This document shows, one piece after another, positions 10,623 to 12,508 of a stretch of DNA of 64,000 nt. Below the pieces are notes generated by a model that worked only from the letters and a program-made list of their open reading frames with translations, had not been told where the DNA came from and did no database searches. The stretch is from an uncultured Candidatus Hydrogenedens sp. (GTDB taxonomy: Bacteria > Desulfobacterota_D > UBA1144): the NCBI GenBank assembly GCA_902609885.1, contig CACLTT010000001.1, forward strand, positions 62,001 through 126,000. Direction: 5' to 3'. The stretch's first letter is position 1, and the number at the start of each line of letters is the position of its first letter. The translations under genes were made by a program, and so were the position numbers.

Positions 10623-10811
10623 TTATTTTTCAGATAGCAGCTTGCCACCAACAGACCACTGATTTCTAGGTATTTCATCAATTTGAACATATGTTGATGA
10701 AGGTGGTTTACCTGCTACTATTTCCATTGTTTTAGTTATTTCTTCACAGATCTTTTTTCTCTGTTCATCTGATAGGCTACCACCAACTTTCACGTTAATA
10801 TATGGCATTTT
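10623..10811 (-). CDS. 4-oxalocrotonate tautomerase family protein (62 aa)
   Basis: MPYINVKVGGSLSDEQRKKICEEITKTMEIV...; internal ATG chosen because P follows M (catalytic Pro). Confidence 0.85.
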   Translation of the reverse strand, partial: KMPYINVKVGGSLSDEQRKKICEEITKTMEIVAGKPPSSTYVQIDEIPRNQWSVGGKLLSEK

Positions 10812-11004: not shown

Positions 11005-11020
11005 ACTTTAAGTTTACAAT

Positions 11021-11080
11021 AAAAAAAGCTCCTTTACCAAGATGCCGTCACCCCGTAAATAAACGACCTTGAAGGAGCTT
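11021..11080 (-). ncRNA. Candidate structured leader RNA / sRNA with terminator-like stem
   Basis: AAGCUCCUU...AAGGAGCUUUUUUU with inner CAAG/CUUG and GUCG/CGGC helices, loop UUUAUUUACGGGGUGA; same orientation as and 5' of the 10810-11004 ORF. Confidence 0.65.
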
Positions 11081-11086
11081 AGCTTT

Positions 11087-11114
11087 ATATTAACTAAAAA
11101 TTTTTTTTTGCCAA
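11087..11114 (-). promoter_or_regulatory. Putative sigma-70 promoter for the structured RNA
   Basis: TTGGCA-N16-TAATAT on the minus strand; predicted TSS near 11080, the 5' base of the hairpin. Confidence 0.45.
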
Positions 11115-11161
11115 TTAAATTTAAAAATAAAGAAACTAAGTTTTTCAATTATAATATTTAC

Positions 11162-12508
11162 ATGATCTATGAATGCGTGAAGTGTGGTTTAACCTCTCCA
11201 GTTAAAATGGGAAAATGCCATAAATGTAATGAATGGAACTGTTTTGAAGAAAAAAAAGAGAGCAAAAAAAATAACCTTAAATTATTAGTCTCAAATAAAC
11301 TATCTGACTTAAAGACTCTATCAAATAAGCAGATTGAGTCTTCGATTATTGAAATGGATCGCGTATTAGGTGGTGGATTTACAGTTGGCTCAACTATATT
11401 GCTTGGTGGCGAACCAGGGATTGGCAAGTCAACTTTGGCCTTACAGCTCGCTGCAAATCTTTCCAATTCGAATTCTGTTTTATATGTATCAGCTGAGGAG
11501 TCCATATCTCAAATTAATTTAAGATCAAAACGGCTAGGTATTACATATAATAATTTATTTATTTTGAATGATGCCAGTATAGATCAGATTTTACTTCAAA
11601 TAGAAGATGCAAAGCCGAACATTGTGATAATTGATTCTATTCATGCATTGACGTCAAATGATTTAGATTCTCCATTAGGTTCAATTTCACATCTAAAAAC
11701 ATCTTCTCAAACACTTTCTGAATATTGTAAAAAAAATTCAGTCATATTAGTACTTATATGTCATATCACTAAAGATGGAACTATAGCAGGCCCCAAAACT
11801 CTTGAGCATTTAGTTGATACAGTATTATATTTTGATCAAATTGAGTCTGATGAGCTCAGAATTTTAAGAACAACAAAAAATAGGTTTGGCCCAACTAATG
11901 AGATTGGTATTTTTAAAATGACCGAAAAAGGACTTATTGAGGTATGTGAATCATCAAATATTTTTATTTCTGATAGCACCAATTCTTATCCAGGCACAGC
12001 TATCTCATCAACATTTGAGGGTTCCCGATCTATATTGATAGAGATTCAATCTCTTGTATCGGCTCCAAGCCAGTCTTATGGAAAACGTTATTCTAATGGA
12101 ATAGAAATTAACAGAATAAATATGTTAATAGCAATTCTTGAGAAGTTTTCAAAAATCACTTTCAACGATAAAGATATTTTTGTAAACGTCTCTAAGGGAG
12201 TAAAGGTTAAAGATCCATCTGTAGATTTAGCAATTATTGCTGCACTCTTATCAAGTTTTAAGGATTTAACAATTCCTCTAGATAATGTCTTCATTGGCGA
12301 AGTAGGACTAGGAGGAGAAGTCAAGACTGTCACAAAAATTGAAAAAAGAATAAAGGAATTTGAAAGAATGGGTTTTAAAAAATGTTTTATACCTTATCAG
12401 TCTCTTGCTCAATCTAAAAGTTTGGAAAGATATTCTTCAAATCAGATGAAATTAATTTCTATCAATAATATAAACGAGCTTAACCAATATATTGGTGAAG
12501 TTGAATGA
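11162..12508 (+). CDS. radA: DNA repair protein RadA
   Basis: MIYECVKCG...GKCHKCNEWN zinc finger, GGEPGIGKSTLALQLA; start moved from the track's 11069 to the ATG at 11162. Confidence 0.93.
   Translation: MIYECVKCGLTSPVKMGKCHKCNEWNCFEEKKESKKNNLKLLVSNKLSDLKTLSNKQIESSIIEMDRVLGGGFTVGSTILLGGEPGIGKSTLALQLAANLSNSNSVLYVSAEESISQINLRSKRLGITYNNLFILNDASIDQILLQIEDAKPNIVIIDSIHALTSNDLDSPLGSISHLKTSSQTLSEYCKKNSVILVLICHITKDGTIAGPKTLEHLVDTVLYFDQIESDELRILRTTKNRFGPTNEIGIFKMTEKGLIEVCESSNIFISDSTNSYPGTAISSTFEGSRSILIEIQSLVSAPSQSYGKRYSNGIEINRINMLIAILEKFSKITFNDKDIFVNVSKGVKVKDPSVDLAIIAALLSSFKDLTIPLDNVFIGEVGLGGEVKTVTKIEKRIKEFERMGFKKCFIPYQSLAQSKSLERYSSNQMKLISINNINELNQYIGEVE

Follow-up and report, generated by a model that had tools for sequence, protein, structure and literature searches.

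A predicted single-hairpin small RNA gene beside radA in marine Dadabacteria, with the nrdA leader as a possible target

Introduction

What might a compact RNA hairpin do that stands between two divergent transcription units, immediately in front of a small gene encoding a zinc-ribbon protein? The question is raised by a ~60-nt element in the window analysed here, a stretch of 64,000 nucleotides from the genome of an uncultured marine bacterium. A preliminary description based on the letters of this DNA had offered two answers, an attenuator/riboswitch-like leader of the zinc-ribbon/tautomerase gene pair or a ~60-nt sRNA, and had pointed out that the hairpin terminates no upstream gene; radA being divergent, this is confirmed. 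The alphaproteobacterial setting which it had assumed is wrong, the host being a marine Dadabacterium. Little work has been done on sRNA regulation in uncultured marine bacteria with streamlined genomes, and a full-text search of the literature for Dadabacteria in combination with small RNA returned nothing relevant. Our comparison of related genomes suggests that the element is a stand-alone sRNA gene, previously undescribed and specific to its lineage, a reading to which we assign a probability of about three in four.

Results

Structure and conservation of the hairpin

The features of the locus are collected in Table 1. Sequence, strand and coordinates of the hairpin are as first described, and the fold together with the covariation confirms the compact structured RNA with three stacked helices, bulges and a U-tract that had been proposed. 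When folded as a 60-nt transcript (with G as the first base in place of A), it has a basal helix of 9 bp, separated by a 3-nt 3' bulge from an upper helix composed of CAAG/CUUG and GUCG/CGGC with a 2-nt 3' bulge, at -20 kcal/mol (z = -3.7; 0 of 200 shuffles as good); folded along with its flanks it reaches z = -2.4. In 12/12 loci the sequence shows a G/C-rich stem with a U-tract behind it, as in an intrinsic terminator, and a transcript running from the start of the stem to the U-tract is predicted to measure about 58-60 nt.

Table 1. Features at the hairpin locus, in window coordinates.
Feature	Position	Strand	Remarks
4-oxalocrotonate tautomerase family protein (PF01361)	10623..10808	minus	domain match
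zinc-ribbon protein, 64 aa	10810..11004	minus	no Pfam or NCBIfam family above cut-off
-10 TAAACT, leaderless zinc-ribbon promoter	11011..11016	minus	predicted; exactly 6 nt before ATG 11004
putative -35 TTGGTA, zinc-ribbon promoter	11035..11040	minus	inside 3' half of hairpin; 18-nt spacer
sRNA gene	11021..11080	minus	predicted; ~60 nt, whole transcript one hairpin; without Rfam match
terminal U-tract	11021..11027	minus	U-tract in 12/12 loci
basal helix P1, 3' arm AAGGAGCUU	11026..11034	minus	covariation
upper helix P2, 3' arm CGGC-AU-CUUG, AU bulged	11038..11047	minus	folds and comparison of loci
apical loop UUUAUUUACGGGGUGA, 16 nt	11048..11063	minus	UACGGGGU invariant in 12/12 loci
loop core ACGGGGUG	11049..11056	minus	perfect complement of nrdA leader loop CACCCCGU
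upper helix P2, 5' arm CAAGGUCG	11064..11071	minus	folds and comparison of loci
basal helix P1, 5' arm AAGCUCCUU	11072..11080	minus	covariation
-10 element TAATAT, sRNA promoter	11087..11092	minus	TAnnnT in 12/12 loci; predicted start 11080
-35-like element TTGGCA, sRNA promoter	11109..11114	minus	position conserved in 12 loci; mostly TGACA in relatives
radA -10 TATAAT	11150..11155	plus	exactly 6 nt before ATG 11162; leaderless promoter
radA	11162..12508	plus	divergent from hairpin

The hairpin occurs at 12 loci in 11 of the 14 genomes of one marine Dadabacteria family, in four of its five genera, and at all 12 loci it lies between the divergent radA and the zinc-ribbon/tautomerase pair. One genome (G008) carries two divergent loci with sRNA and zinc-ribbon gene on different contigs (L029 and L033), which may reflect duplication or mixed strains. 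Neither sRNA nor zinc-ribbon gene nor radA was found in G002 and G012, genomes that are perhaps incomplete; radA has no match in these two and in G006 (3/14 family genomes). In G006 the order of genes is etfAB, murI, zinc ribbon, tautomerase and amt, and with these neighbours intact and radA missing between murI and the zinc-ribbon gene, its loss is probably real. The hairpin has decayed there as well (fold z +1.2): this genome, 93% complete, keeps the nrdA leader loop discussed below, while radA and sRNA are absent.

A search with 4227 Rfam models placed the hairpin in no known family at the gathering threshold, which is where the preliminary description had left it, and permissive thresholds added nothing. 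A search of 44 further genomes from the phylum gave no convincing homologue, just weak and shorter matches which we take to be ordinary terminators. Matches to the exact pattern on viral contigs all fall inside open reading frames, and none fits the hairpin model.

Covariation and conservation of the loop in homologues, the two signs by which the preliminary description had proposed to judge the element, are both present among the 12 loci. Helix P1 is 97% paired, with three pairs altered on both sides (C-G to G-C and U-A to G-U in G003, U-A to C-G in G008), and the covariation score of 0.209 compares with 0.148 ± 0.019 for shuffled alignments, is matched by 0 of 500 shuffles and exceeds all slid controls. 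The sequence of P2 varies by genus (CAAGGUG/CACCUUG, CAAGAUG/CAUCUUG, CAAGGUU/AACCUUG, AAGUUG/CGGCUU), and the helix forms in every fold examined, being short in G009. The loop stretch UACGGGGU is unchanged throughout and the G that follows it is kept in 11/12 loci; in G013 the loop reads GGGGUAA.

Two predicted promoters

A scan for promoters found TTGGCA-N16-TAATAT, in which 11087 is the last base of the -10. Taken alone, this motif is no better than chance, since 14 promoter-like sites were found where 16.9 were expected. Because such sites are frequent by chance in A/T-rich DNA, the case for an sRNA promoter rests on conservation: the distance from the -10 to the stem is 6-7 nt in 12/12 loci, and the predicted start falls on or beside the first stem base. 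The promoter named in the preliminary description, with its start at about that base, has thus kept its position in 12 loci.

Downstream of the hairpin, TAnnnT is found exactly 6 nt before the ATG or GTG of the zinc-ribbon gene at 13/13 loci including that of G006, the three middle bases being variable. Since it is retained in G006 without the hairpin, the zinc-ribbon promoter and the hairpin gene are best regarded as separate, overlapping functions. The spacer to the putative -35 is longer than the usual 16-17 nt, and the TTG of that element would coincide with the CUUG arm of P2. In G009, CTTG is kept although the 5' partner of this arm is altered, and G006, which has lost the hairpin, still has a TTG at the same spacing before the -10. 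No conserved ribosome-binding site was found between hairpin and zinc-ribbon start codon. These comparisons suggest for the zinc-ribbon gene a leaderless promoter of its own and transcription apart from the hairpin. Its product shows two conserved parts, EPISAYHKxCPxCG and CHCCGKKFxVLFGC, and the tautomerase gene follows close behind.

A similar arrangement is seen elsewhere in these genomes. TAnnnT at 6 nt precedes 68 of the 406 unit-heading genes of G000 (24.4 ± 5.3 at other distances) and 60 of the 414 of G005 (25.4 ± 4.4), and TTG is enriched 16-17 nt further upstream. The signal and a Shine-Dalgarno sequence are nearly exclusive, with 1 gene having both against 16 expected, and 53 orthologue pairs have it in common compared with 4-16 at control offsets. 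Leaderless promoters are thus apparently a general feature of these Dadabacteria, as judged from their genome sequences; leaderless bacterial genes are already on record in other groups (PMC3160421).

The nrdA leader as a candidate target

The target scan went through the G000 and G005 genomes stretch by stretch, which gave 888 orthologue pairs and 407 orthologous upstream regions. The best conserved match of the sRNA loop to start regions lies in the 5' UTR of the gene for the ribonucleotide reductase large subunit, which NCBIfam NF005544 identifies as NrdA-type, class Ia (1332 bits; cut-off 965). Here the loop core ACGGGGUG is perfectly complementary, over 8 bp, to the invariant leader loop CACCCCGU, with a predicted energy of -16.0 kcal/mol as compared with -12.5 for the next-best conserved site (gap 3.5). 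In G000 the site, TTGCACCCCGT, is found at C1:10702-10712, ~51 kb before the window, and in 14/14 family genomes it occurs exactly once, upstream of nrdA. Outside the family, 16 matches to TTGCACCCCGT were checked and 0 lie upstream of nrdA; one with a longer common stretch (L214) falls within coding sequence, on the strand opposite a fabD-like gene.

The leader carries a conserved hairpin (GGGGCAAGG...CCUUGCCUC) ~50 nt before the nrdA start codon. Its apical loop, nearly invariant around CCCUUUUGCACCCCGU, holds the pairing site, which is mostly unpaired in predicted folds. For ten genomes, a predicted pairing energy of -14.2 kcal/mol stands against an opening cost of about 2.3-4.8 kcal/mol, which leaves pairing favourable by roughly 9-12 kcal/mol. 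How often a loop would find such a partner by chance depends on the treatment of tRNAs. With tRNAs masked, 4/800 shuffled loops attain the same -16.0 kcal/mol somewhere in the 407 regions; with tRNAs unmasked, 6% match an equally good conserved site, several of them via tRNA sequence. By a simpler count, 146/2000 permuted 9-mers (7%) have a conserved 8-nt complement.

sRNA and nrdA site co-occur in 11 genomes, and the invariant part of the sRNA loop is the very stretch complementary to the site; the GGGGUAA loop of G013 leaves 7 bp. No compensatory change was seen between the two loops, since both hardly vary. The nrdA loop is invariant over more bases than the sRNA could pair with, and the fact that G006 keeps it without the sRNA implies that it must also serve something else, which weakens the target call. 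The leader hairpin, intact in G006, may have a cis function of its own. Taken together, these comparisons make nrdA a tentative target, at somewhat less than even odds.

Discussion

Conservation, structure, promoter placement and complementarity of the sRNA all emerge from the comparison of genomes, and they have to be weighed against other ways of reading the same hairpin. As a cis-acting attenuator or riboswitch-like leader, the terminator hairpin would control read-through into the zinc-ribbon and tautomerase genes by way of a ligand or protein bound at its loop. Its place, just 16 nt ahead of the start codon of the zinc-ribbon gene and always followed by the same genes, would suit such a role, and by inspection UUUAC of the loop could pair with a downstream GUAAA in some genomes. 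However, the zinc-ribbon -10 holds its leaderless distance even where the hairpin is lost, the stretch from hairpin to start codon shows no conserved ribosome-binding site, and with the hairpin beginning at the start site there is no room for a separate sensing domain or antiterminator. The signature of a separate leaderless promoter for the zinc-ribbon gene, just past the U-tract, leads us to favour a stand-alone sRNA over a leader, which we consider improbable; of the two roles first proposed for the element, the sRNA is therefore retained and the leader disfavoured. Two more readings did not hold: a T-box is rejected, UGGU fitting tRNA-Pro occurring in G000, G001 and G004 only, and a small ORF from UUG after the Shine-Dalgarno-like GGGGUGA ends after two codons in G003, G007 and G010 and enters the zinc-ribbon frame in G005 only, and so is not conserved. 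A further reading, a mere terminator which shields the zinc-ribbon promoter from minus-strand transcripts and whose RNA product has no function, agrees with the intrinsic-terminator form directly before that promoter; an invariant loop of 8-9 nt would be unexpected for it, as would a conserved promoter that starts at the stem, and it is very improbable.

A stand-alone ~60-nt sRNA might equally act elsewhere, on another mRNA, tRNA-Pro, the anti-Shine-Dalgarno tail of the ribosome or a protein, with the nrdA match due to chance. All evidence for the sRNA itself stands without a target, the unmasked permutation p is about 0.06, the nrdA loop outlives the sRNA in G006, and by inspection GGGGUGA of the loop could pair over 7 bp (one G-U) with the anti-Shine-Dalgarno UCACCUC. 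Against this, nrdA leads the conserved matches by the margin given above, in a loop that is both invariant and exposed. An action elsewhere is accordingly a serious contender, if likewise short of even odds. Among such partners, tRNA-Pro(GGG) drew attention in that its genes (L091 and others) begin in several genomes with TACGGGGTG, the same 9-mer as in the sRNA loop; as this start is found in some genomes only, we take it as coincidence.

On the reading that we prefer, a stand-alone sRNA acting on nrdA, RNA polymerase would start at the base of the stem, near 11080, transcribe the single hairpin and stop at its U-tract, thereby releasing an RNA of ~58-60 nt whose working part would be the exposed loop ACGGGGUG. 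None of the 14 family genomes yielded an Hfq, so that a mode of action not needing Hfq is required, and the sRNA would act without it. The sRNA loop would pair with the leader loop CACCCCGU over 8 bp in a loop-loop (kissing) complex and thereby change the translation or stability of nrdA. The zinc-ribbon and tautomerase genes would be transcribed separately and leaderless from a promoter overlapping the 3' half of the sRNA gene. In this account we infer transcription and termination, as well as intracellular pairing and the direction of regulation. It is tempting to go further and to speculate that a one-hairpin, Hfq-independent sRNA regulates ribonucleotide reductase by kissing a dedicated nrdA leader hairpin, that the sRNA gene also serves as core promoter for a leaderless neighbour, and that its decay along with radA in G006 ties it to DNA repair and dNTP supply; as a whole, this picture is doubtful.

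CopA/CopT and RNAI/RNAII are antisense RNAs that act by loop-loop (kissing) contacts, and OxyS-fhlA does the same in trans. Like them, the Dadabacteria element is a small stable hairpin, and its G/C-rich loop is complementary to a loop in the leader of the putative target. The genes of the sRNA and of this target lie apart on the chromosome, unlike the situation with CopA and RNAI, and the pairing of the two RNAs is a prediction. With terminator-type bacterial sRNAs it shares an own promoter and a terminator hairpin with U-tract at the end, but it consists of the terminator hairpin entirely, the loop being its main free segment, and its hosts lack a detectable Hfq. Attenuator-type leaders such as the PyrG leader (Rfam RF02371) likewise have a coding region directly behind a terminator hairpin; the match to RF02371 is, however, below threshold (20.6 bits; cut-off 65), and the downstream gene is unrelated and apparently has its own promoter.

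A conserved sRNA with a predicted target provides a concrete, testable case in this group of bacteria. An sRNA gene that overlaps the promoter of a leaderless gene is also a compact arrangement, which an annotator could mistake for a riboswitch. If nrdA is indeed the target, there would possibly be a post-transcriptional layer of control on ribonucleotide reductase besides that of the NrdR-like boxes, which were seen by inspection upstream in the nrdA leader. Finally, the nrdA leader provides the family with a second structured RNA besides the sRNA: its hairpin (L098:10673-10732 on contig C1 of G000, outside the window, and L198-L211), which has no Rfam match, is characterized by a near-invariant stem and loop CCC(C)UUUUGCACCCCGU, with a conserved GUGAUUAU-like stretch upstream.
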